Part shown: piece by piece, positions 19,251 to 60,390 of the stretch | Layout of the letters: each line of letters starts with the position of its first letter | Numbering within the stretch: the first letter of the stretch is position 1 | Notes under the pieces: model-generated | What the model was told of the DNA's origin: nothing | Databases searched by the model: none | The model's input: the letters and a program-made list of their open reading frames with translations, nothing else | From: Aphrocallistes beatrix | Taxonomy: Eukaryota; Porifera; Hexactinellida; Sceptrulophora; Aphrocallistidae | NCBI GenBank assembly: GCA_963281255.1 | Contig: OY725493.1 | Span: 62,001 to 126,000, forward strand | DNA length: 64,000 nt | Direction of reading: 5' to 3' | Translations under genes and position numbers: made by a program

Positions 19251-22200
19251 CTATTTCCCGTAGAATTTCTTGTTGATGAGGTAGATGAGGAGATTGACAT
19301 TGACCTTGACTCTCCCCAGCAGTTTCATGATTTGGACATTCTCAAATCGGTGTTGCAGCAAATCTTCGAAGACGACATGCACACTCTCAGCTGGGAGTCC
19401 GAGCATCTTGGCGTTTATGTCGAAACTCCCGTGGCTCACACTGACAATCTCGAAGAAGAGAGCCTTGAACTGAGACTTGGACACTCCGTCGATCTCGATG
19501 AGGATTCCTTTGTCGAATAGTTTCTGTGCTGAGTAGCGGATCGTCTTGCTTCTAAAATTAGCTGCGGCCAGGACGGGAGAGGTTTGTTGATCCGGCGTGG
19601 GTGGCAGCTTTTTGGCGCCTTTAGACATATTCGCGGTTGCGGTTTCGACGTACTTCCGGTAGTCCGCGTACTGCTCGTCCAGGAAGGCCAGCTTCCGGTC
19701 CAGCTGCTCGATGGCGGTGCTGAGTCTCTCCTTCTCGCTGCGGCGCTCGCGGCGGTAGCGGTGCTGGTTGCGGATGTCCCTGGCGATGGCGTTGAGGATG
19801 TGTTGGTACCCGTCCGCGGCGGACACGACCCCTCTCTCCTCCAGCAGCTCCAGGTTCTCGCGCAGGAAGTACTTCAGCTCAGAGAGAGTGTAGTTACGGG
19901 TCTGGCTCGGAGCTATGGAGCTCGTGATCAGGTCGTGATCAGCTGATTTCTGCACCAGCCTATCAAACGCCTGCTCTGTGGCAGCTGAGTGGACAGCTGA
20001 GATTATGTCGGGGAGGTTGTCGCCCGGATGGACTTTGATCAGATCCACTGCCATGCCCTTAGCCTCCAAGAACTTGGCGTTCGTGTCCAGCGCTTGCTTG
20101 TCTTGCTGAATGCCTTCGTACTTGTTTACGAGAGTGAGCATTATCTCCTGCCGTCCCAGCTCCACCCATCTCTCCTGCAGCTCTTCGGCCGGAAGGTTCC
20201 GGTCCTCCAGCTCCCCGAGGAGGTTCCGGATGTCCGGTGTGTCGCCGAGTGCCACCAACACCTCCCTGAGTGGGTCATCTCCAGACGGCAGCGGGGCCAC
20301 TGCGTCGAGGTGGGCGAGCAGGAGTTTGTGCGTGGAGATGATCTCCTTGGCGCTGATGTTGATCACCGGGCGGGAGATCATGACCAGGTCCGAGTACTCG
20401 CCGATGTCGAACTTCTCCTCGGCGCTTGGAACGTCGGCGGCCGCGGCGAAGTACTGGGAGAACCTGGCGTGGGAGGCGCGGATGTAGGGGTTCAGGGCGG
20501 ACAGACACGCGTACTCCCCCTCGAACAGCTTGCAGGCCGCCGCGTGCTGGAGGATGCGGGCGATGCTTCCGAGCCGCTTCCGCTGCTCGTTCTCCAGACT
20601 GGCGCCCGCCTCCAGCTCCACCACCTCGAACGCGTCCGGCGCGGCGATGACCGGGTTGAGGAACCGGTAGTAGATCAGGTTCCCGGTCACCTTCCCGATC
20701 TCCTCGTCTCCGGCCCGGGGGAACCTCTCCCGCAGGAAGTGCCCCAGCTTGGAGGCCATGTACCGGAGGCCGTAGGGGAGCGTCCGCGCGTTGGAGAAGA
20801 TCGCCTCCATGAACTCGTCCGCCGCGGCAGAGACTGTCTTCATCGCCTCGCTCAGGCGCTCCCGCACTTCTGGGTGGTCCAGCGCCTGCAGGTTCGACAC
20901 CTCGTACGGATACCGGGAGGGCTCGCCCGTCTCGATTTCCGTCTGCGACAGCCAGCCCTTGTAGATGTCCACCGGGTTGAGCGAGATGCGATCTTCGGAA
21001 TGTAACACCTTCTCCACGAGAGGGCCGAGGACACTCTTCAGGTGGTGCTGCTGGAAGTCCATGCGGCGCGTGAAGGAGATGATCAGCTTGACGACGGTGG
21101 GGTTCCCGATGATGACGTCATCGATCTTCTCCACTTTGGAGAATATCTCGCGCCTGAGCGCCGTTTCGAAGAGCTTCAGGAGGAGGAAGTGCTCCCGATT
21201 GGTGGAGGCGTAGTTGAAGACAGTCAGCACCACTTCCTGCACGAAGGCGGTGGTCCTTCCGCCGGGCATGTCGAAGATGAGGTTGGCGAAGTAGCGCGGG
21301 TCGGTCTGCAGGAGGTAGAACAGGTGCGCGTAGCCGCCTAACAGCTGCTTGTTCTCTTTGGTGAAGTGCTGGATGCCTTTCGATTGGCTGCGAGCGGCCA
21401 ATCGCCGGCGCTCCAGCTTGGAAGTGGTGTGCACCACGTCCATTACGCTGAGTCTGTTCCGGACCAGGAGTCCGATCTTGGTGTCGAGTCCGTCCAGGTC
21501 CTCCTCCAGCTGTTTGTTGCGGCGGATCTTGGTCACGAGCTCGGACTTGAGCTCCGTCAGCTCCAGCTCCTCCTGCACGTCGCGCTCGCTCTGCTCCAGC
21601 AGGGGCAGGTACTTGCGGAGGGAGGAGACGGGCGGGTCGGAGGCCGACACGATCAGCTGGTAGGACTTCATGGCCAGGTGGCAGCGAACAGCTGACTGCG
21701 CGCGGACGATCTCAGGAATGTGCGCGTTGTAGTGCGCCACTTTCCCGCGGAACTTCCTGCGCGCCAGAACCATCTTGAGGTAGCTCTGGATTCTAATAAT
21801 AGCGCCCACCTGGCGCGCGAAGTGGAGCTCTCTGTCGTTCATGGCGCTGATGGAGCTGACCACTGATTGGATGGAGGTGTTGGAGAGGAGAGATGTGTCG
21901 AGGTGGCAGCTGCCACTCCGGCGCCACGAATACTCGCCCGACTCAGTCTGGAAGAAGAACGGAAATCCGTCGATGGACTCGCCCCCCAGCCAGAGGCCCG
22001 GGGAGGAGACGGGACTGAGGAGTTTGGCGTTGAGGTTCCGGATCCTCAGGCGGGTCAGCTCTTTGTGGAACTGAGTGGCGCAGGCCTCGGAGAGACCCTG
22101 CAGGGACAGGGAGGGGGCGAGGAGGCGCTGGAGGGTCTCAGCGGGGTCGACGGCTGATTCGAGGTAGGTGTTGAACTCAAACACCTCCCGCGACAACTCG

Positions 22201-25200
22201 ACACTCAGTTCAGCTGACTCGTTCCCATCCGACACAATTTCCAACAGCTCCACGGACGTGAGAGTTCTCCCGCTCGATTGCGTGAATTCCCGCCTAATCA
22301 GATCGCAGTAGTGGGGCGCGTTCTGCGGCACTAACAGCTGACCGCAGGCGCCGAACAGCTGCGAGAGGAGAGAGAGAATCGCGCTGTCATCGTCACCTTC
22401 CAAAATCAGCTCTCTGATCCTCTCCACCAATGACATCTCAGTGTTCACCTTCTCCACGCTTTCCTGGATCTCTTCGTGAGACAGAAAACTTCCGGATGCA
22501 TGCCGGGATAATTCGACCAGAGCGTCGTGGTACCGGTCCCGATATGCCGGCACTACGGCCTGGATCCGGGCGTGCGGGGCGGTCAGATGGCTGAGAGTTG
22601 TCTCCGGTTCGTTCCGAGGCAAAGAGCTGTTGATGCTCTGGATAGCGAGAGAGTGCAGGGCTTCTAATCCGGCGTTTTGATTGGTCAGCTGCACTCCCTG
22701 CTGCACCTCAACCTCGTTCAGTATCTCCTGGGCGCCAGAACTCTCCCGCTTAACACCTCGCTGAGACAGGAAATTCTCAAAATAGCCCTCCACATTGTCA
22801 GCCACCACTTCCTGCAGTTCCAGCTCTTCGCTTCGCAACCCAATTAAGAGATTGGAATGCGAACCGTTGTCAAGCGCATGGTCTATTTTTAGCAACACAG
22901 TTTCGATATTTTTGGAATTGAGCGCCACAGAGTTTGCCAACCGAATCAAATCGCGGATTTCTTCCCAAAATAGATCCGCGTTCTTCTCGGTGCGAGCGCG
23001 GCTCATGACGTCATAGTACCACACCGAGTGAACAGCTGTGACACCTGTGAACCCTGACTCCTGATTGGCCAGCAGCTGCGTCAGGTGCTGATGCGACGCG
23101 GACGTGTCCAGTGTCAGAATTTGGTTCAGCTGCGCCACGACTTCCACCCTGGCAGCTGCCATTCTCTCGACCTCTTTCTCCTCGTTCACCTCTGCGATGG
23201 CCTGGAAGAGCTCAGCGCGGGAGAGAATGTAGTCGTACGCGTCGATCTCGCTGCGGCTCCGCTCGCTCACTCCGTCGCAACTGGCGCCCAATTGGTTCAG
23301 CTTCCCCGCGCGCCACATCTGCAGCGCTTCGTAGTAGAGCCGCGCGTGGGGTTCCGCCATGTGCGGCTCCAGGTCCAGGGCGGGGTTTCCCAGGCACAGC
23401 TGGACTCTCTCGGCGGACATCTGCTCCAGCGCCTCGTACACCGCCACCTCCGCCGCGTGCACGGCCGCCTGGTCCAGAGTCAGCTGCTCGCGCAGGAGCC
23501 CGTCGATCTTGGTGAAGGCCGGCATTCGGATTCCGGTCCGCTCGAACTCTCTGAGGACGTTGTCTATCTCCTCCTCCGTGAACTCCGCCTCTCCTAGGGC
23601 GACACAATTATAACACCTGAGAGTGGCGCAAACGGACACCTTATAAGGCCGCAAGAAGTGAATAAATGAAATAAAATTGTGGAGTTTTGAATCCCATTTA
23701 TTAACAATTAAAATATTTCATTTGAATAGAACTTCTATCTTCTCCGAGTTCCTGCACAAGAATTTAGTTATTAGAACCAATAATCGCGTAGAGCTCTGTT
23801 ATGAGGAATTCCAAGTGTTTGTGCATTCCTTAAACCCATTTAAGAATCACAGAAATACAACACAATTGAACGAGTTTGTCACCACAATTTAACCCAGCAT
23901 GAAAATGATTAAACCAGACATGACGTCACACTATCAGTTCGGTTCACAGCCAACTTTGAAGATAGTTAATATTCAGGGAACCAATCCGATTTGAGAATAA
24001 TTATAGTCGCATCCACTCCCTCCCTCCCTCCCTCCCTCCCAAGGGAAGAATTAAGGATCGAAGTGGTTGAATAGCCGCAATTCCTTACATTCCACTTACC
24101 CACTAGCGACGCCATGGTAGGGCCTCTCCCCAGCTTGGACAGGTAGATGCTGAGTGCGTGGATACAGTAGATGACGCGTGGCATGTTCTTCTTATCGTAG
24201 ATGTCAGTGGTGGTAGGGTAGAATATCTTGGGCAGTCCCAGCCGCTCCATGGCCTGCATCCAGTAGTTGATGTTGTCGGTGTGTCTGAAGTTCAGAGTCT
24301 TCCTCTCCTCGCCCTTGATCCGAGTCCGCGGGAAGACGCCGGGGTACATGAAGCAGGCCAGCTTGGCCAGGATTACTCCGTTCCTCAGCGATTCCTCCAG
24401 GTCGGCGGACTCAGGAATGTCCTCACTAACGCACTGGGATATCCACCTGCGAGCTTCTTCTAGTCTATAAATAGAATGAATAACACCGCATTCCTATGGG
24501 TGTTAGGTGTTACTAGGGATATCATAACTATCTGAAAGAATCAAAAGCGGATTTCGATTTATTGGAATGTTGAATGACTGACCAATAATCTCTACGCCAA
24601 ATAACTGACCAATAAATTCACACTTCAGAACTCGGTTAATTTCCAGACAGAAACTTTCACAGTGATTGGCTGTTCACAGAGATAACTCATATCAGTGCAA
24701 TTCACATCGAAACTCAACTTAAACAGATTTCACAAAGGATTCTTTATGACAATAATTTCTGTATTTTAATTCAGATGGTCTTATACCAGGTTTCACTCGA
24801 GATTGAAATTGAATTCTTGAATAACTCCGAATAAAGAACCAATTCAATTCAAGAATTCGGCTACAGACATTGCAGTCCATGGACTGGAAATGTATTGAAA
24901 TGATGGCTGAAGCGAACGTATAAGTTATCCCGATTGATAGAACCAAAACTGCACTGAAATACACCGACAATCATGAAACAAATGAATGAGATACGCATTG
25001 AGTTTCCAACTAACACCTGCCTAAATAAAATATTCTTCGAGACTCTTCGGACACACGAAACTTAGAAATTAGATTTGGGATGCTTTGCGGGTTTAAAGGT
25101 CCGTTGGTATCTCCGTCCTTAACAACTTAACATAGCGCACAGAATGTCAATGTACATGTCCCAATCTTTAAATGATAATTTCTAAAAATAAATACTAAAG

Positions 25201-40417: not shown

Positions 40418-40721
40418 AGCATTTGTCCGAATCGATTTTTGGAATATTGTCATTTGTCCGAATCGTAATTTGGAATATTGTCACTTGTCCGAATTGGGAC
40501 GCTCGGAATATTGAGTGTAAAATTGGCATTTTAATTTCGTGACGAGTGGGTTGAGTGGCATTACTAGAAATCCTATTCTGACAAACGCCAGCAAAGGAAA
40601 TTCTGACTAATGACTACTTCAAGATTCTGAAAAATGCAGCCTCTTCATTCGGACAAATGACAATATTCCAAAAATCGATTCGAACAAATGACAATATTCC
40701 AAAAATCTATTCGGACAAATG
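40418..40721. mobile_element. MITE with CATTTGTCCGAATCG ends
   Basis: The left arm holds three tandem CATTTGTCCGAATCG...GGAATATTGTC units (40418-40500) and the right arm their reverse complements (40650-40721). It is a palindromic element with subterminal repeats; the target duplication was not resolved. Confidence 0.7.
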
Positions 40722-50250: not shown

Positions 50251-51688
50251 AGAATGTTTACCAATATTATCCATTGCGTCAGATAGACATTTTTCTGCCT
50301 CCTCCATCTGTCCATTCTGGAGGTGTTTCTGTCTCAGTTTGCTGCACTGATCAGCTGTTTTGAGGAAGCTGAGTGGCTCATAATTCACCTCCACTTCTTC
50401 CCCGCCTATTTCACACGCGTCCTTGAAGATAAAGAACAACTTCTGGAACACTTTGTTGGAGGACTTCAGAGAGGTGTGTCCGTTCGAAGCGATCAGAGAG
50501 GCGTTGTTTAAAATATCTAGACATCACACGGAGTTAGTTCCTATCTCTGAATACAGAACTTAGTTCCTATCTCTGAATACAGAACTAAATTCCATATCAC
50601 TGAACACGTAACTAGGGAGTTACCTAACAGCTTCTGTGCTTTCTCATGGTGCTTGGGTACCAGTGGATCTCCAATGACAGAGCTGACTAGCTTCAAAAAC
50701 TTCTTCTGTTCCTCTTCTACAGAACATACTACATAAACGTATTCGTTGCCATGAAGCTACACACAGTGTCCGCTAGGTGGATATTGAACGTTAACATTTA
50801 GTTTTGGGTCATTTGCCCCTTGTACCCCAGAGGTCCGAAGGCCACTCTAACACCTGGAATCCCAACCCTTCATTCTGACCAATCAATTCACCGATTAAAC
50901 CTATGACATCATTGGTCATTATGTGCGGTAGTGTCTCGTACCATTGGAAGGCTTGGCTTTCACTTTTTCCTGACACGATTCGAGCATTTCCTGACTCCGC
51001 ACGAAGAGAGTGTCCTTCATCAGCTGAGGCAGCCTTTGCATCTAAAGAACAGCTGACACAGTAAGCACACTCAGAGCTGAGGTGTGAAATCAGCTGACAC
51101 AGCAAGCACAGCTCAGAGCTGAGGTGTGAAATCAGCTGACACAGTAAGCACAGCTCAGAGCTGAGGTGTGAAATCAGCTGACACAGCAAGCACAGCTCAG
51201 AGCTGAGGTGTGAAATCAGCTGACACAGCAAGCACAGCTCAGAGCTGAGGTGTGAAATCAGCTGACACAGTAAGCACACTCAGAGCTGAGGTGTGAAATC
51301 AGCTGACACAGTAAGCACACTCAGAGCTGAGGTGTGAAATCAGCTGACACAGCAAGCACAGCTCAGAGCTGAGGTGTGAAATCAGCTGACACAGTAAGTC
51401 CAGCTCAGAGCTGAGGTGTGAAATCAGCTGACTACTCACAGTGACGATGTCCTTCCTGTCCTTCTCGTCCAAGAGGGAGCGGACGTGGTCGCAGAACTCC
51501 TGGTAGGTGCACGCGGCCGCTTCCTCCCCGAACAGCTGATGCACCTGCTCCTCTCCAGCTGGCGCCAGGGGATCAGCTGATTCCTCTCCGCGGGGGGCGC
51601 GGGGACACGGGGTCGGGGGGGCGGTCTGTGCGTCCTGGAGGATCAGGTACGCGGACGAGTCGATCTCCTCACTGCAGAACTCTGCCAT
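47815..51688 (-). CDS. Paraflagellar-rod-like coiled-coil protein
   Basis: Eleven exons join in frame to 559 residues: 51688-51440, 51041-50942, 50716-50624, 50516-50262, 50173-50019, 49939-49812, 49751-49658, 49191-48994, 48856-48707, 48170-47990, 47891-47815. After an acidic N-terminus (MAEFCSEEIDSS) the protein is almost all helical and coiled coil. Landmarks recall the paraflagellar rod (PFR1/PFR2) family of kinetoplastids, in order: a GKAELQHGVAEQRY segment, KRCEEDRGRMDRA, KKVSVWQDNVSRL, LALVEEGCTLVVEDF, then ALQLYRRCLVGRIVASRFRL, LDALLQPKKEDLKKQR and a lysine-rich tail. The length also agrees with that family. This is from recalled family features, so it is a proposal; an unrelated coiled-coil protein is the alternative. 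A role in a flagellum or cilium would be the expectation. The acceptors of exons 6 and 8 are CTATTTTTAG and CTATTTATAG. The leader is probably spliced (acceptor CATTCCTAG, 51694-51695). Confidence 0.65.
48222..48531. mobile_element. Complete TA-flanked MITE (GTGCAGCTCC family) in PFR-like intron 9
   Basis: The perfect 10-bp inverted ends GTGCAGCTCC and GGAGCTGCAC are flanked by TA on both sides; length 310 bp. It defines the family also seen at 2392-2910 and 54165-54471 and points to Tc1/mariner-type mobilisation. Confidence 0.9.
49243..49343. repeat. Inverted repeat with GGTCTTTCCCTGAAT arms in PFR-like intron 7
   Basis: The arm AATTACGGTCTTTCCCTGAA (49258-49277) and its complement TTCAGGGAAAGACCTTAATT (49322-49341) enclose a ~44-base loop rich in ACGTT and CGGG. 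It is either a small MITE or a structured intron segment. Confidence 0.7.
50190..50251. repeat. (AAAC)n(TAAC)n microsatellite in PFR-like intron 4
   Basis: Runs of AAAC then TAAC. On the minus strand they form a GTTA/GTTT-rich tract leading to the exon 5 acceptor. Confidence 0.9.
51050..51436. repeat. 42-bp minisatellite filling PFR-like intron 1
   Basis: About nine units of CAGCTGACACAGCAAGCACA plus GCTCAGAGCTGAGGTGTGAAAT, some shortened by one base. The array starts within ten bases of the exon 1 donor and ends about 10 bases from the exon 2 acceptor, so the intron is essentially the array. The period is a multiple of three, which makes long meaningless ORFs. Confidence 0.93.
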
Positions 51689-52921: not shown

Positions 52922-53503
52922 CTAACTCAGGAGCATTTGACTCCTGAACTCTTCATCGGACATTTTCTTAAAAGTGGAAGCGTAGCCTCGAACTTTGCTA
53001 GCTAAATCGTTTCTTTTTAGGATTTCCAGACATTCTGCCAGATCTTCAGTATCCCTGGTTATGATGCTGTTCTCTATGCACAGTTGGAAGATCTGGTTTC
53101 CGCTCTCTTTCCCGTCCAAGCTCACTTTGGAAGAGCTGGCGGTGAGCATGATCCAGTGCTTCTTGGTCATTCCAGTTATCAGCAGCTCTCTGAATGTGTT
53201 GGTGGGGTGGGGTTCATCAGCGGACGCGGGAGATAAGGAGCTGGGAGAGCTCAACCACTTCAGCTGTCTCGCGGTGTATTGCAACTTCCCACCAATCATT
53301 TCAAGCGCTGCATCGAACTCGCAGGGATCAAAGTCCTTCCATTTCTTTAGAGCGGTCAAGAAACTGACAGTATCCGTTCCGATCCCCTCGCTCACTCCCC
53401 CTGGCACTCGGAGGGTGTTCTTCAGCTTTTCTATTATCTCAGGCGTCATTAACTTGTCCAGCTCGACGTACACTTTCATTTCATTTTTGTCAGATTCAGC
53501 CAT
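52922..53503 (-). CDS. Tandem death-effector-like domain-only protein
   Basis: A 193-residue single coding exon. It is made of two death-fold-like helical domains and nothing else: DED-like 1 at about 7-84 (MKVYVELDKLMTPEIIEKLK...FLTALKKW...YTARQLKWLS) and DED-like 2 at about 102-178, ending with CLEILKRNDLASKVRGY, which has an RxDL motif (R164-L167) typical of DED helix 6. It matches the first ~190 residues of the NACHT gene 3.5 kb away along its length and in domain order. Free-standing tandem death-effector proteins in vertebrates act as adaptors or decoys that tune apoptosis; a similar regulatory or adaptor role is inferred. There is no NACHT, caspase or LRR part. An acceptor-like CTCCTCTAG six bases before the ATG suggests a spliced leader, the same structure as in the NACHT gene. 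It is transcribed away from that gene. Confidence 0.75.
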   Translation of the reverse strand: MAESDKNEMKVYVELDKLMTPEIIEKLKNTLRVPGGVSEGIGTDTVSFLTALKKWKDFDPCEFDAALEMIGGKLQYTARQLKWLSSPSSLSPASADEPHPTNTFRELLITGMTKKHWIMLTASSSKVSLDGKESGNQIFQLCIENSIITRDTEDLAECLEILKRNDLASKVRGYASTFKKMSDEEFRSQMLLS

Positions 53504-53819
53504 TCCAGTCTAGAGGAGCTGAACAGGAAATAAATTCATTTTTAATAACTAAAGTTTAAGATTTAAGGAGTAAGCAACTTCTTCGAAGGAGCGCTCTTTT
53601 AAATATTTTGAAAATACGCATCACTTCTATTCTCAGGCGTAGCAGCTGCTATGTAACTACCTTAATTCTATATATTGAGAAGCCCAGGGGACTTTTCAAT
53701 ACCTCCTTCATTCCTACCTACCTAAACTCAGGTACAGAATCTCAACGCAGTCCCACTCTCCCTCAAAAAAGTGTGAGGCCCGTCTAAAATGGGGCGGTTG
53801 GCATCAGGGAGTTCTCTAG

Positions 53820-53985
53820 GAGCAGAGACGCTACTTTAGCGTAGTTTTATGCCCAATCGTTTTAGGACCGCGGAAATTGGAATATTTTCCTATACCATAA
53901 TCTAATTTATCGGTTTAGGCGTATGAATATTTATATGATTGGGATTAGGAGTGTTTCTGTAGAGCTGTATAATACCCTGAGTGGC
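53820..53985. repeat. GAGACGCTCC-family repeat, inverted copy
   Basis: AGCAGAGACGCTACTTTAG on the left and GTGTTTCTGTAGAGCTGTAT on the right, with a body shared in inverse with 38655-38810 and 61712-61865. Confidence 0.55.
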
Positions 53986-54115
53986 TTTTATGCCAATGAC
54001 CGATCACAACAGACGACGTAATCGTAAATTGTTTCACAGAAACTAAAATACGTAGTTCATTTCGAATCATTACCCGTGATTCCAAAATACTAGGATCTCG
54101 AAATTCTACGCAACA

Positions 54116-55820
54116 GGTCTAATCAATGGTCATTGGTCAATAACATCAAAGCCAACTGTAATGTTAAGTACCAGGGACATTATTCACTAAACTTCTTAAC
54201 TTAAGCTTTGCTTAACTTTAAGTAAAAACTAAGTATGAACATAACAAATTTAAGACCACTGGATTCTGATTGACTAATACATTTTGAAACTTAGTGAAAA
54301 GATGTTATGATTTGCAGAATTTGAACTCAGGTTCAAGTATCCACCTTGAAAGGAATATATGGTCCAGATTTGGTGCTTTTGGTCGAATAGAATTTCCAGG
54401 AGCGAGGAGACGGATGTACGGACGTTACACGCCGATCTGACATAAGACATCTCTTATACTAGGAGCAGCGCTAAAAATGATGATGAATACAAATTTGATG
54501 TGGTGGAGATTTCAATTTGAATCTAGGATTATTAAGCTCTAGGCTTAATCCTGGAGAACTGAAGAAAGATAAAATATTCCTTTTTGGTTTAAACTCTCCT
54601 TAACTCGTGTCATTACCCTTACTCTGATATCTCCACACAACTTTATCCTTTAAAGTTTATAGTTTGACTCCTCCTGCTATGACACTGAAGAGAATTTGCT
54701 GAAGGAACAAGTTCTGTGTTGAAAGTACAAACCAATGAATTCAAATGGTTGAACCATCTCAATACTAGATTCCTGTCTCCAGATCAGTGAGAATCTAGCC
54801 AATCAGAACTGTAGTTATTAGACTGAATAGAAAGATGCAAATTTTGTAAAAAAATTTTCTCATACTTTGTAAATTTCTTAAAATTTATACAATTCTATCC
54901 ATGGTAACATTATACTATACATACAGTAAGACTATACAGACCAATCACTCCCTTGCTATCAGTTCTATTTGGCATTCTGGATGTGTTCGTGTCTCTAGAT
55001 ACTGAATTTATCAGATAGTGGAACGATATCTTCCAAATCTATTGGTTAATGCAAACATCCACTAAAGTACACACTACATTTAATCTGACAATGTTATTTA
55101 GGATTGTTGACACCATTTTTCGTTTTTGTTTGTATATTTTCAAGAAACACTGACTCCGAAAGAGAAAAGGGTGGATCCAAAGTTCTACAAACCTCATTTT
55201 TCTTGAAAAGCGAGGCGGACTATTCCGAATAAATCTAGAGTTTGCTTATCAATCTATTGAATAGTATTAGGCATCCTGTACTGATAAATAGATAGATTCT
55301 CTAGCAGTTAGTATACTGAAACACTACAACCAATACTGTTCAGAACACACACGAACACAAACAATTCAAACTCTCAAAATTATTCCTCGAAAGAAGAATT
55401 CGCAGCAATTCACACATTCCAATCTGAAACAAGTGAGTTCATTTGTTCTATTTATAGCAGTCTTATTTTTAGTAATTTCAGGTGCGGCGTGAGCTATAGG
55501 CGCCGAACCCGGGGGGGGGGGGCGGGGGGGGGCTCGAGCCCTCCCTGGATTCGAAGATGGCCCATAGACGCAATACTAAATTTAGGGCTGTGCCCCCCCT
55601 AGAACCCCGAAATTGTCCTTAAATTTCGCAAAGTTCGGCGCCCCTGGCGTGAGCAATACCAGACATTTTCCTGGCAAATATTCAAATTCAACCAATCATT
55701 TCAATGTTTATCTCGGTAATCTGGATTCACAGTGGCTTAAACTTTCTTAGATACACAGTAGAACGTCAGTTATCCGCACACGGTGGGACCGCAGAGGTTC
55801 TGATAACTGAGGTTCTACAT
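54116..55820 (+). repeat. Duplicated module, copy 1 (upstream of the NACHT gene)
   Basis: Long stretches are nearly identical to 62858-64000, in the same orientation, including AAATTTGATGTGGTGGAGAT, the block from TTCGAAGATGGCCCATAGAC to the end, and a G-rich run at 55511-55532. Copy 1 has extra segments, notably the MITE body at 54165-54471 and about 54955-55240. A candidate splice donor GAAACAA|GTGAGT (about 55431) is present in both copies. Confidence 0.88.
54165..54471. mobile_element. GTGCAGCTCC-family MITE, inverted and degenerate
   Basis: It ends in TACTAGGAGCAGCGC followed by TA. Read in reverse the body follows 2585-2780 (CGCTCCTGGAAATTCTATTC, CAATCAGAATCCA). In copy 2 of the duplicated module most of it is deleted (62911-62934). 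Confidence 0.6.
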
Positions 55821-56993
55821 GTAAATAGTTTTTCTGTTGTTATTGTGCTTGAATTGTTTGATATTATTCTAAATTTAGATTTATTTGAAATTCCAGTTTA
55901 TTCACACATTTACACAATTAAGTGAGTTCCAAAATAGAATACTGATCTAATAATAGACTTTCCTTGAAGGTGAGGAGGAAGGGAAGGGATATTGAGTCAC
56001 TTTTCTGTCACGAATTGATCTGAATTGAACTTTTAAGCTAGGACATATTAGTGACATGCATGCCATCAAAAAGTGTCCTCGTAATGTCACATTACCAACG
56101 ATGTTAAAACAATCAAAGTTAGAATATCCCTTATTTCAATTTTTTAAATTCAAATACGAATATCTCAAGTACCTTAGAAAGTAATTATCTTGTTCTAATT
56201 TTAGACACAACTTATCATTGAGCTTTCGGCACATTCGAGCTTAATCACAAATTCACACACATTTCAAGTAAGTTGAAATACAAATAACTACAGTGGATAC
56301 ACACTACTACATTCCAGCACCAAATCCATTGTCTATTTCTAATTTTAGTCTATACCATATCTCCACTGTTCTTCTATAGTGTATTCTTGTATAGTGTGTG
56401 ACAGTGTACTAAGTAGACACAACAAATAATACTCCACACAATCCATACGGTTGAGACCTTGCTGTAACTCACCATATTATTATTATGTAATTCTCCCTCG
56501 CAATGATTCATATTTTATGAAAATGTGTCGATATTTTAGACTTAGAGAGTGAAATGCAAATTGTATTATTGATTGCATAATTTCCCAGGATTGATCCGAA
56601 ATTACTTTACCCAAATTGTGGTGGAACTTCTAAAATCGTGTGTAATTTTTGCACAAAAACCTGGCCTATAGGATATCTCAACTTTCCCGAGGAACTTGTA
56701 TCCTGCATCCAGCATACTGAGTAGATACAACCAAATAATAGAGCACAAAGTCCATTCTATAGTTAGTGTATAAAGTACACGAGAGGGGATATAAGATGCA
56801 GAGGGATGGCTATTCGAAAGCTGTTTAGTTAGAAATGTTTTAACTTACGACCGTGGAATTACATGACATTGATCCGTTTTCTTAATGTTGTTTATACGTA
56901 AGTAATGCATTAGTTTACCTACATGGTAAATCCTGAATCTTCAACTAATACGAGTAGATGATTAGATAATTCGGTTTCCTTATTCTAGATAAA

Positions 56994-59642
56994 ATGTCTA
57001 CAAGTCATATGCACGAAATGAAAGTGTTTGTGGAACTCGGCAAATTACTGACACCGCCAATTTTGCGCAAACTAGAAAACGCCCTGAATATTCCGAGTCG
57101 AATCGTTGAAGAATCAAGAAACGAACCCATTCGATTTCTGTACGCGTTGAAACAGTATGAGCATTTCAATCCGGCACTTTTCGACTGTGCAATGCATGAG
57201 ATTAACCCGAGCATTCAGCATGTCGCTAGGAAACTGGAATGGTTAAGCAATCCTCAGTACACACAGCCCACGAGTGGCAGACAGACGCGCTCCATGGAGT
57301 CATTCGTCAAATTGTTCGCAAACGAGTTGAGTTCAGAAGACTGGATGATACTAGCTGGTACTTCAGCCAAGGGGAATGTAGATCCGAAGGAGATGATGGA
57401 GAAATGCATCAATGAGAACATAATCACCAGGGATATGTCAAAGCTATGCGAGTCACTAGAAATACTTGAACGGAATGATTTAGCTTTAGAAGCACAGCGA
57501 TATGTGAATGTTTTCCAAGACATCACCACATCCCAGTTTCGTGAACAAATGAAAACTATCCTAGAAGAAGATTTAGAGGAGAATCAGAGAGAATGGCAAA
57601 CACGTTTGAGAAAGTTCCTCAAAACTCAAAACAAGGACGTTAGCGTTGTGTTAGATGATGCAACCGTCCCGATTGAATCGGTTTATACACCGCTTACCGT
57701 GATTCAAATTAAACCGGCAAAGGAGGCAGCGTTTGAGGAGAGTGGCCTCAACGAGATAGAATTCCTACGCAATATCCACCAACAAGTCGAACTGGAAACC
57801 GTAGAGGTCGTAGACTTTGAAAATATTGTCATTAAGTGCGATTTAAATGATAATAAACTGTGGTGTTTGATTGGTCACCCCGGCAGTGGGAAAACTTTCT
57901 TATGTAAGCACTTCGGCTACATGTACGGTACCCACACTCTGAATAACTTTAAATACACTGTTTCAATTCCGTGCAGGAGTAAGGAGTGGCATCTGTTAGA
58001 GGAGGAGAGACACGAAAAGAAGCAGGTCGTGAACTCGCCATTCATTGTTAGCTGGCTCCAACTCAGCATGTCGACTGGCGCCAAATGGAGCAAAGAACTC
58101 TCCGAGCATTTGGTCAGATCGGACGGAGAGGGACTCTTCATCATAATGGACGGGGCTGATGAGTTCACCCGGAGTGTCCCATTCGAAACCGCTTTACTCT
58201 GCAAATTGCTAGAGCGACAGTTTCTAACACGTAGCACCATCCTGTTAACGAGTCGACCTAGCGCGTGGTACGATTTCAAATACACGTACGGCGCCCAATT
58301 CCATATCGATTCAAACTTCCAAGTGTTAGGCTTTTCCCCCGCCAACCGAGACTTGTACTTCGAAAAGCGCATCGAGACCATTTCCAAACTAAATGATGTT
58401 CACGAAATGTTCCACCGTCACGATGAACTCAAACAACTGTCCCTGGTGCCCGTGAACGCCAGTTTATTCAGCGCTCTCTTCAACGCGACTGAATCCATCC
58501 TCACCCAGACACTGTCACACCTCTACACACAATTGATAGTTTATATCGTCAGACGGCAGTTATCACGAATGGAACTGAAGGAACAGAGCAAAATCGTAGA
58601 AATGTCCAACTTCCATCCGGCCATTCGAGACTGCATTAATACCATTGGACTCGAGGCTAATCAGGGAATATTCGAACGAGAACTCACCTCAGAAAAGAAC
58701 ATCTCCCTCACGATTGACGATAAGGTGTATGACAGTGAGCGTCTCGGTTTAATGCAAGTCCACATGAAAGTAGTGAGGTTTGGCGTGCGTGTGAAGGTGT
58801 GGACCTTCCAACACCTGACCATTCAAGAGTACATGGCGGCACTTTCCATTTGTAACAATTCATGGACAAATCAATGTTTTATACTCCGTTACCTGACTTC
58901 CTCTGCTCAGTACTTGTCCATGTATAAAATGGTAATTCGCTTCATGGGTGGGATCTTAAGACAGGACGCAGGACGCATGACTCCCATTCTCTGCCGCCAC
59001 ACTCTCCCGAAACCCTTGTCACTCCGTGATGCACCTATGTATTATCAGCTGTATTACGACACATCCCTTGTTAATATTTCCGATTGGAAGGAATTTACTC
59101 AATCCTACCTTCTTCTCACCACAGTGATAAGTGAAATGAACTCACATTGCATTTCTGAGCACTTTGCATATTTCAAAAGAGAGATTTCCTATCCTCTATA
59201 TTTATATTTCCTTTCTACAATATCTCCGAATGAGTGGCATTGTTTTCTTCAGTCATTGTGTCATATTCGTGAGTATCAAATCATTCATTTCCATTCTGAC
59301 TATGTTACCTCAGCGCAGTTCCAAACTTTCTTGAGTCAGATCTACTCCTGTTCTATCCATTACTTAGCGCTGGTGTTTGTTGAGAAATATTTCGATTCCA
59401 TATATCCGTTCACTAGCATTCTCTCCTCTGCCACTCTGCCACCTAACACCAGGATTAGTTTCCATTTTGTGAAATGTAATCTGACTGCTTCCATTTTTTC
59501 ACAGCAACTGTTTACATCAACCAATCAATTCATGGGTAGTTTGGAGATACATGATTCTGTTATTCATTACCAAACACTGAACTCCCTCACCAATCAGTTC
59601 TATTTGTTGGAGAATTTGCACTTATATGCCCGAATCGAATGA
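56994..59642 (+). CDS. Tandem DED-like / NACHT NTPase (NLR-like receptor)
   Basis: 882 residues in one exon. DED-like 1 is at about 7-84 (MKVFVELGKLLTPPILRKLE...HVARKLEWLS) and DED-like 2 at about 102-175, with an RxDL motif at 160-163 (RNDL). A linker follows to about 290. The NACHT NTPase has Walker A at 294-301 (GHPGSGKT) and Walker B at 381-391 (LFIIMDGADEF), followed by STILLTSRPSAW (sensor 1 type) and the helical region (QVLGFSPANRDLYFEKRI, FQHLTIQEYMAAL). From about 700 the sequence becomes Leu-rich. This is the STAND/NLR plan of an intracellular sensor that oligomerises on activation and signals through its N-terminal death folds. Codons are AT-rich. An acceptor (TTATTCTAG) five bases before the ATG implies a noncoding 5' exon. 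The stop at 59640-59642 overlaps the next frame, which carries the LRR tail, so this is probably a truncated reading of a longer gene. Confidence 0.85.
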   Translation: MSTSHMHEMKVFVELGKLLTPPILRKLENALNIPSRIVEESRNEPIRFLYALKQYEHFNPALFDCAMHEINPSIQHVARKLEWLSNPQYTQPTSGRQTRSMESFVKLFANELSSEDWMILAGTSAKGNVDPKEMMEKCINENIITRDMSKLCESLEILERNDLALEAQRYVNVFQDITTSQFREQMKTILEEDLEENQREWQTRLRKFLKTQNKDVSVVLDDATVPIESVYTPLTVIQIKPAKEAAFEESGLNEIEFLRNIHQQVELETVEVVDFENIVIKCDLNDNKLWCLIGHPGSGKTFLCKHFGYMYGTHTLNNFKYTVSIPCRSKEWHLLEEERHEKKQVVNSPFIVSWLQLSMSTGAKWSKELSEHLVRSDGEGLFIIMDGADEFTRSVPFETALLCKLLERQFLTRSTILLTSRPSAWYDFKYTYGAQFHIDSNFQVLGFSPANRDLYFEKRIETISKLNDVHEMFHRHDELKQLSLVPVNASLFSALFNATESILTQTLSHLYTQLIVYIVRRQLSRMELKEQSKIVEMSNFHPAIRDCINTIGLEANQGIFERELTSEKNISLTIDDKVYDSERLGLMQVHMKVVRFGVRVKVWTFQHLTIQEYMAALSICNNSWTNQCFILRYLTSSAQYLSMYKMVIRFMGGILRQDAGRMTPILCRHTLPKPLSLRDAPMYYQLYYDTSLVNISDWKEFTQSYLLLTTVISEMNSHCISEHFAYFKREISYPLYLYFLSTISPNEWHCFLQSLCHIREYQIIHFHSDYVTSAQFQTFLSQIYSCSIHYLALVFVEKYFDSIYPFTSILSSATLPPNTRISFHFVKCNLTASIFSQQLFTSTNQFMGSLEIHDSVIHYQTLNSLTNQFYLLENLHLYARIE

Positions 59643-60390
59643 ATTTGATTGGATAAACCAGATTATGAGCATTCAGTACCTAATAGCATCACATCCACTC
59701 AATGGAATATTCATTTATGACCCGAATGGTTACCTCCCAGTGTCCCCTGAAATCTTATCCTCTGTCTCCTCGTTACGAGAGTTACAATGGGCAACAAAGG
59801 AAGATGCATACGAAGTCCTTCCCTATATAGAGATATTCAGCTCTCTCACATTATTGATGCTAACATCCGCTAGATCACCATGCGACTATTCCCGCAAAAA
59901 CTCACTCACTGAACTAATTGCAACAAATTCCAATTCATTAAAAGAAATCAATTTCAATCTTTTGCACGCTGTCGGATTTCATGGCTTGAGTAGTTTCCTA
60001 AAATCCATTTCATCATGTTCTAATCTTATGACGTTAAAGATAACGAGTTGTAATTTAACTTCGTTTGACGTCCGTTGCTGGTACAGCACTATCTCAGCTC
60101 TTAAGTCACTCGTTTACTTGGTAGTTCAGGATATCCCTCTACAAGACTCAGGCATGATGGTGCTATGTGGTAGTCTAGTTCATCACTCTGCTATAAGGTG
60201 GTTATGGGTACGAAAGTGCGAACTCAGTTCTTCCTCGTGTCACACTCTCAGCTGTCTTATACCCACACTCCCGAGAATAAGAATGATTGAACTCTCCCAA
60301 TCTGAACTCTCTGTTCCAGACTCCGAACCACTACAACGCCTCATACAGACAGCAGAGAAGTACTCTGTCGAGATTCAATTTAAAGATTAA
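59626..60390 (+). CDS. LRR tail of the NACHT gene, in +1 frame
   Basis: 254 residues overlapping the preceding ORF by 17 bases. It is leucine-rich with NLR/ribonuclease-inhibitor-like repeats (SLKEINFNLLHAVG, LMTLKITSCNLTSFDV, SLVYLVVQDIPLQDSGM, IRWLWVRKCELSSSSC, IRMIELSQSELS), continuing the Leu-rich end of the upstream ORF. Its own ATG is inside the overlap. One gene with a one-base frame change (mutation, assembly error or recoding) is more likely than two genes. No intron with plausible sites bridges the frames at this point. Confidence 0.7.
   Translation: MPESNEFDWINQIMSIQYLIASHPLNGIFIYDPNGYLPVSPEILSSVSSLRELQWATKEDAYEVLPYIEIFSSLTLLMLTSARSPCDYSRKNSLTELIATNSNSLKEINFNLLHAVGFHGLSSFLKSISSCSNLMTLKITSCNLTSFDVRCWYSTISALKSLVYLVVQDIPLQDSGMMVLCGSLVHHSAIRWLWVRKCELSSSSCHTLSCLIPTLPRIRMIELSQSELSVPDSEPLQRLIQTAEKYSVEIQFKD

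Follow-up and report, generated by a model that had tools for sequence, protein, structure and literature searches.

A glass sponge family of predicted NACHT-LRR proteins with tandem death effector domain-like heads, and a free-standing head gene beside one member

The glass sponge Aphrocallistes beatrix is predicted to encode a large family of NLRs, most of them in a single coding frame, that join a tandem head resembling two death effector domains (DEDs) to a NACHT domain and leucine-rich repeats (LRR) of the ribonuclease-inhibitor type. Within this family, strongly diverged heads are found on nearly identical bodies, and further heads are encoded on their own. The account that we favour, and that we consider somewhat likelier to be right than wrong, is that the heads are old and bound to their loci, that gene conversion homogenises the NACHT-LRR bodies across loci and that the free heads tune signalling in the manner of c-FLIP. 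The starting point was a window of 64,000 nucleotides (positions 62001-126000 of contig OY725493.1, called C7 here; positions without a contig name are those of the window), and the genome searched comprises 100.5 Mb in 28 contigs.

The window genes and their family

The window contains a short gene on the minus strand (52922..53503) with an intact frame of 193 aa and, 3.5 kb away and in divergent orientation, an NLR gene on the plus strand with a frame of 882 aa (56994..59642); both frames lie where a sequence-only reading of the window had placed them. This reading had also described two successive domains shared by the two N-termini, an RxDL motif in the second of them and an acceptor-like site just 5' of each ATG, and the further analysis bears this out. 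The short protein and the N-terminus of the NLR have the two domains in the same order and spacing and are 39% identical over 190 aligned positions with only 4 gap positions (E 2e-46); RNDL (R-N-D-L) is present in domain 2 of both proteins; and an acceptor-like TAG lies 6 nt 5' of the ATG of the short gene (53510-53512, minus strand) and 5 nt 5' of the ATG of the NLR (56986-56988, plus strand). By sequence, the TAG is a trait of the family: of the 59 family frames amenable to this check, 48 carry it no more than 12 nt from their first in-frame ATG.

The head of the window NLR, recognised by homology, profiles and its position in the tree, comprises residues 1-190 (56994..57563, plus strand) and is followed by a NACHT domain (PF05729; 57861..58373, plus strand; Pfam E 1.1e-13, 51.8 bits against a cut-off of 26.7). 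The gene had been read as open through to 60390, which it is not: in comparison with its tandem sibling at C7:127169, which is 96.8% identical and has an open frame of 1,139 aa, the frame breaks at about 59619, and the remainder (59626..60390, plus strand, 254 aa) continues in another frame. The break could be an assembly error. The 254-aa continuation matches LRRs of the ribonuclease-inhibitor type in a phmmer search of solved structures (ribonuclease inhibitor E 2.4e-29, NLRP3 4.9e-13; E values summed over several repeat stretches), whereas Pfam finds no family in it at E up to 1. Pfam LRR searches were also negative in seven relatives whose sequences were cut ahead of the last part, and LRR_6, the sole LRR model searched genome-wide, gave 35 matches at E up to 1, none of them at a NACHT place (coordinates compared by eye). 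Judged by these matches, the window NLR would have the NACHT domain, the C-terminal LRR and the N-terminal effector domain of an NLR, with the LRR frame positioned past the frame break.

Genome-wide, the merged searches gave at least 117 NACHT places, at least 107 of them preceded on the same strand by a head match no more than 1.5 kb away. At 84 of these head-linked places the frame is 1,100 aa or longer; the frames of the other 23 are shorter and some of them are broken, including that of the window NLR. The counts are lower bounds, as they rest on the best 150 of 190, 150 of 189, 94 of 176 and 86 of 309 candidates, and the extra NACHT places from two of the searches were picked by hand.

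The nature of the heads was examined with an alignment of 51 heads, a chosen subset of the 92 heads in the tree described below. DED is the leading Pfam family (28 of the 51 heads, best E 3.2e-10 for the whole head). A DEATH identity was rejected because Death matches only four of the 51, and CARD and PYD were rejected with zero matches among the 25 families listed for these heads. When the heads are halved, a sequence profile finds DED in five of 51 first domains (best E 1e-7) and 21 of 51 second domains. In the short protein, domain 2 matches Pfam DED with an E value of 3e-4, which is under the curated cut-off, and the first domain has no match to the DED profile. All 42 matches of a genome-wide Pfam DED search likewise stay under the curated cut-off; one NLR on contig C4 is matched there in each half (E 2e-4 and 0.11). 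Comparisons with solved structures point in the same direction: ten of the 11 rows obtained with the head profile are c-FLIP or PEA-15 (E 0.022-0.09), PEA-15 accounts for five of nine rows obtained with the first half (best E 0.066), and c-FLIP, PEA-15 or viral FLIP for 12 of 29 rows obtained with the second half, including the ten best (E 0.023 or worse). The two halves are barely alike (hhalign probability 1.9%). Of the 92 family heads, 57 have R.DL in the second half and 36 in the first, compared with about three in shuffles. Each profile signal is weak, and together they agree in favouring, weakly, a pair of DED-like domains over CARD, PYD or DEATH. The architecture proposed earlier, tandem DED-like domains followed by NACHT and LRR, is thereby supported: by the weak DED matches of the heads, by the NACHT match and, for the LRR, by the solved structures.

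Other parts of the window were inspected as well. An IQGAP-like gene with RasGAP, RasGAP_C and IQ matches (19254-23654, minus strand) is encoded in a single frame of 1,467 aa, which shows that NLRs are not the only genes here with a long single frame. A 42-bp tandem repeat (51050-51432; 9.2 copies, 96% matches) lies inside minus-strand frames at 50809-51688, and no Pfam family is found at 51302-51688. Two 31-bp repeat arrays (40420-40494 and 40647-40721), with units that by eye are partly inverted to each other, are perhaps the ends of a mobile element. On the mitochondrial contig C28 (17,996 b, part examined), cox1 has 14 in-frame TGA, 16 AGA and no AGG. AGA largely occupies positions where Ser or Gly would be expected and not Arg, ATA is at positions presumed to be Ile (for example in NHKD-I-GTLY) and AAA at presumed Lys; the combination of ATA for Ile with AAA for Lys speaks against the common bilaterian mitochondrial codes, and a bilaterian origin of the genome was rejected on the codon use. 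Haen et al. are said to have found in 2007 that glass sponges share a changed reading of AGR with bilaterians.

Divergent heads on nearly identical bodies

Eight NLRs of contig C7 have NACHT regions (alignment columns 260-700) that are 92-98% identical in protein, but heads of three types: type A in the window NLR and its sibling C7:127169, type B in the NLRs at C7:722, 424 and 818 kb and type C in the NLRs at C7:397, 405 and 625 kb. Head identity is 30-46% between types and 61-99% within types. In all 21 between-type pairs the heads are saturated at synonymous positions (pS 0.76-0.88), whereas the dS of the NACHT region is only 0.09-0.16. Between types, DNA similarity (matches of more than 60 bp) sets in abruptly near codon 195, at +569 to +613 when counted from the ATG. 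For the window NLR, the first base aligned to each of six partners falls at +569 to +598, which places the mosaic junction at 57562..57591 (plus strand), in agreement with a jump in dS; its head has no DNA match to the C7 NLRs of other head types, and similarity begins at the junction. The one between-type match upstream of the junction is a stray stretch of 76 bp shared by the flanks of a type A and a type B gene (L002 versus L004). Similarity upstream of the ATG is short even within types (-21 to -84, or none), and the type A pair alone reaches -490. The stray match and these short stretches count against the reading that each locus keeps its flank, which is therefore tentative.

Trees of heads and NACHT domains are in conflict. 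The NACHT tree and the pair counts below include 35 of 36 NLRs: L062 was dropped because of its short NACHT piece, and L015 covers 45% of the columns. In the NACHT tree, the eight C7 NLRs and one from C9 form a clade of nine with a support of 100, and this clade is rejected by the heads (p 3.3e-5). Three more NACHT groups are rejected by the heads with p 2.3e-4, 0.0023 and 0.025 (five tests, uncorrected). Among the 595 pairs of the 35 NLRs, 92 have a NACHT identity of at least 88%; in 33 of these 92 the heads are less than 60% identical and in 37 at least 80%. Most of the 33 discordant pairs, 27, come from the nine-gene group, and across the 595 pairs a weak correlation between head and NACHT identity persists (rho 0.23).

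Both the junction and the tree conflict would also arise if heads, not bodies, were exchanged, with old bodies repeatedly gaining other tandem-DED cassettes. Such an exchange should bring similar heads onto dissimilar bodies, yet heads of at least 60% identity on NACHTs of less than 75% were found in none of the 595 pairs, which favours copying of bodies beneath resident heads. Moreover, synonymous divergence is lower in the NACHT region (columns 256-450) than in the LRR segment (columns 820-1040) in 25 of 28 pairs, as conversion of bodies would give. We therefore regard head exchange as improbable, if still worth keeping in mind, and prefer the reading in which the NACHT-LRR bodies have been homogenised between loci by gene conversion while each locus has kept its head. 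The LRR segment has a dN/dS of 0.31-1.39, in comparison to 0-0.31 for the NACHT region (28 pairs of the eight C7 NLRs, rounded values; same LRR columns), as expected of a diversifying sensor.

Free-standing heads and the relatives of the short gene

At least 157 head matches were found in the genome, with one place (C18:2915) counted in two pieces. For at least 49 of them, no NACHT is listed in the 2.5 kb that follow; C7:815699, which the script had assigned to the next NLR, comes in addition. Some of these 49, with long frames or remnants of the linker, are in fact NLRs, whole or broken. After individual examination, 32 heads were taken as free-standing, meaning that no NACHT match is listed within 2.5 kb downstream; the flank itself is not the criterion. 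Ten pairs of related free genes were compared, and in nine of these dN/dS is 0.23-0.61; the tenth has no synonymous change.

One group of free heads stands apart. On contig C19, 22 head matches are clustered between 426 and 898 kb (L064-L081), and 16 of the 18 frames examined start directly after a TAG, 14 of these without an ATG in the first three codons; the C19 frames are thus probably later exons of another gene type. A frame upstream of these heads has a basic stretch and ends at a donor-like site. The idea that these heads are exons of a transmembrane receptor was rejected: a genome search with the upstream frame matched only itself, and a search for TNFR_c6 was empty.

The phylogeny of the N-termini, one of the checks suggested with the sequence-only reading, was run on 92 heads, 60 from NLRs (of the at least 107) and the 32 free ones; L020, duplicate retrievals of one and the same place and the broken NLR heads L094, L095 and L097 were excluded. 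On this tree the free-standing state needs seven changes, at least five of them forced by strong branches. The short gene of the window falls away from the window NLR, within a set of 11 rows (eight NLR heads and three free heads, SH-aLRT 99), and its inner group consists of the heads of C7:397120, C7:405410, C7:624839 and C9:3419551 (support 93; 98/94 in a more careful tree). Among the matches listed, it is 51-54% identical to these four NLR heads, in contrast to 38-39% to the neighbouring NLR, and no copy closer than 54% is listed. An AU test rejects the grouping of the short gene with the window NLR and its sibling (p 4.2e-6, under the model used).

These data decide against the earlier description of the short gene as a copy of its neighbour's own head and of the two genes as one locally duplicated unit. 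Such a unit would fit the short distance and the divergent orientation, and two other free heads of C7 (C7:815699 and C7:826442) each precede an NLR, at distances of 1.7 and 2.5 kb; as these two are near-copies of each other (dS 0.05), they count as one case. Besides tree and AU test, the sibling C7:127169 has no second short gene beside it among the matches listed, and for 28 of the 32 free heads the closest NLR listed is at least 17 kb away, or their contig has none listed. The only escape would be a later replacement of the head of the NLR, and we consider a single duplication unit very improbable. By sequence, the short gene and the NLR are two family members that happen to adjoin.

It is likewise unlikely that the short gene is merely what is left of a truncated or decaying NLR, without function, even though short or broken frames are not rare at the head-linked NACHT places and close copies of the short gene are missing among the matches listed. 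tblastn detected no further trace of an NLR next to it in the window, and its own stop sits at the head boundary. The gene is free of internal stops, and in a neutral simulation only 4-6 of 1000 runs stay stop-free at 51-58% identity. Compared with two of its closest NLR heads, the gene has dN/dS values of 0.11 and 0.24, which are rough, since dS is near saturation (1.43 and 2.79), and which include the constraint on the NLR branches. The short gene looks constrained, and we take it most readily for a free head of type C that is under constraint.

A functional free head could act in either direction. As a positive adaptor, the bare tandem-DED protein would relay the signal of the NLR heads to a DED-caspase; free heads are numerous, nine of the ten pairs compared have a dN/dS of 0.23-0.61, and caspase pieces on contig C1 are preceded by a DED half (see below). 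The short protein has, however, no second domain type with which to bridge two families, and proteins consisting of two DEDs only are the form of viral FLIP and of short c-FLIP, which inhibit. We therefore consider the adaptor doubtful and place a limiting role first, because the free head carries nothing besides the pair of DED-like domains. The likelihoods given here for the alternatives overlap, as the alternatives concern different steps.

Proposed mechanism and comparison with known systems

In the proposed sequence of events, gene conversion would homogenise the bodies from about codon 195 onward while the head stays with its locus. The LRR would act as the sensor and the NACHT domain would then oligomerise, with the heads nucleating DED filaments to which a DED-caspase is recruited. 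As a bare head, the short protein would co-assemble with like heads, and thus with heads of type C and not with the type A head of its neighbour; its predicted partners are type C NLRs elsewhere rather than the adjoining one. Most likely it would limit or tune assembly, as c-FLIP or the viral FLIPs do, and less likely extend it as an adaptor. Caspase-domain matches number 58 in the genome, counting pieces. A candidate for the DED-caspase is found on C1, where caspase pieces (C1:9114275-9115656) are preceded on their own strand, at a distance of 2.4 kb, by a DED half (L124, C1:9117700-9118600).

Three further places with DED or caspase matches were noted. A frame on C4 (L125, C4:1671350-1672800, minus strand) has several DED-like domains, three by DED search and four by eye, and reaches 38.0 bits with Pfam DED, above the curated cut-off of 35.9; it is possibly a DED hub. 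A 962-aa frame on C13 (L126, C13:4708300-4711200), between the head matches C13:4702960 and C13:4719547, combines a caspase domain with a weak Roc match under the cut-off; no DED was found in the part of this caspase frame near the C13 free heads that was examined. On C17, 25 caspase-domain matches lie between 338 and 447 kb, with the tandem-DED frame C17:428921 among them.

c-FLIP and viral FLIP have two DEDs in tandem, to which the two DED-like domains of the short protein may correspond, and domain 2 of the family aligns to DED2 of c-FLIP. The alignment has an E value of only 0.022, and the 193-aa frame differs from c-FLIP in that it consists of the head only, without a caspase-like part, and in that it belongs to a family of NLR heads.

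The sequence-only reading did not recognise the architecture as a standard NLR class, which holds in part. DED-NACHT proteins are known from amphioxus, sea urchin and Nematostella, with a DED-type head directly on the NACHT domain as in the sponge, and have been proposed to trigger apoptosis directly via caspases with similar prodomains (PMC2575513). What is unusual is the tandem form: here, two DED-like domains precede the NACHT at no fewer than 107 of 117 places, and the available part of that paper mentions no tandem DED. Among the titles listed from the literature searched, which lies largely outside subscription journals, none is on tandem-DED NLRs.

According to the part available of a 2026 survey, each of 11 sponges has more than 100 NACHT proteins, and the glass sponge A. 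vastus has no bona fide NLR (PMC12909245). The NLRD, NLRC and NLRX proteins of sponges described there resemble the present family in their large, lineage-specific NACHT expansion, death-fold heads and LRR, but have DEATH or CARD heads in place of the DED-like ones. In contrast to the report on A. vastus, A. beatrix has NACHT together with an LRR that Pfam does not see. The terms NACHT, NOD-like and NLR are absent from two glass sponge genome papers (PMC10280926, PMC10282587). In zebrafish NLR-B30.2 genes, as far as the accessible text goes, NACHT domains are homogenised by gene conversion within groups, as appears to be the case here, and N-terminal repeats combine with different NACHT groups; the zebrafish N-terminal parts are on separate exons, whereas in the sponge head and NACHT share one frame with the junction inside (PMC4852459). 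Amphimedon has a comparable sponge expansion, of TRADD-N proteins with several (1-3) N-terminal Death-like domains; in the portion of that work available these are followed by TRADD-N, while the heads described here are followed by NACHT-LRR or by nothing (PMC8195603).

The family is thus ordinary in kind and unusual in form, and the mosaic and the nearly universal tandem-DED head are what stand out. The report of NLR absence in A. vastus may stem from Pfam LRR models that miss repeats of the ribonuclease-inhibitor type.

NLR evolution is usually described in terms of a constant signalling head and a diversifying sensor. In this family, loci with nearly identical bodies differ most of all in their heads, so it would appear that diversification affects signalling specificity as well as sensing. 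In a bolder reading, which we consider less likely than not, the more than 100 tandem-DED NLRs of this glass sponge may be pictured as a shared NACHT-LRR body copied by conversion beneath old, locus-bound heads. A single sensor body would thereby feed several separate DED signalling channels, with the matching free heads as channel-specific brakes similar to c-FLIP. The free heads would offer a test of whether DED-only regulators have originated repeatedly outside vertebrates and viruses.
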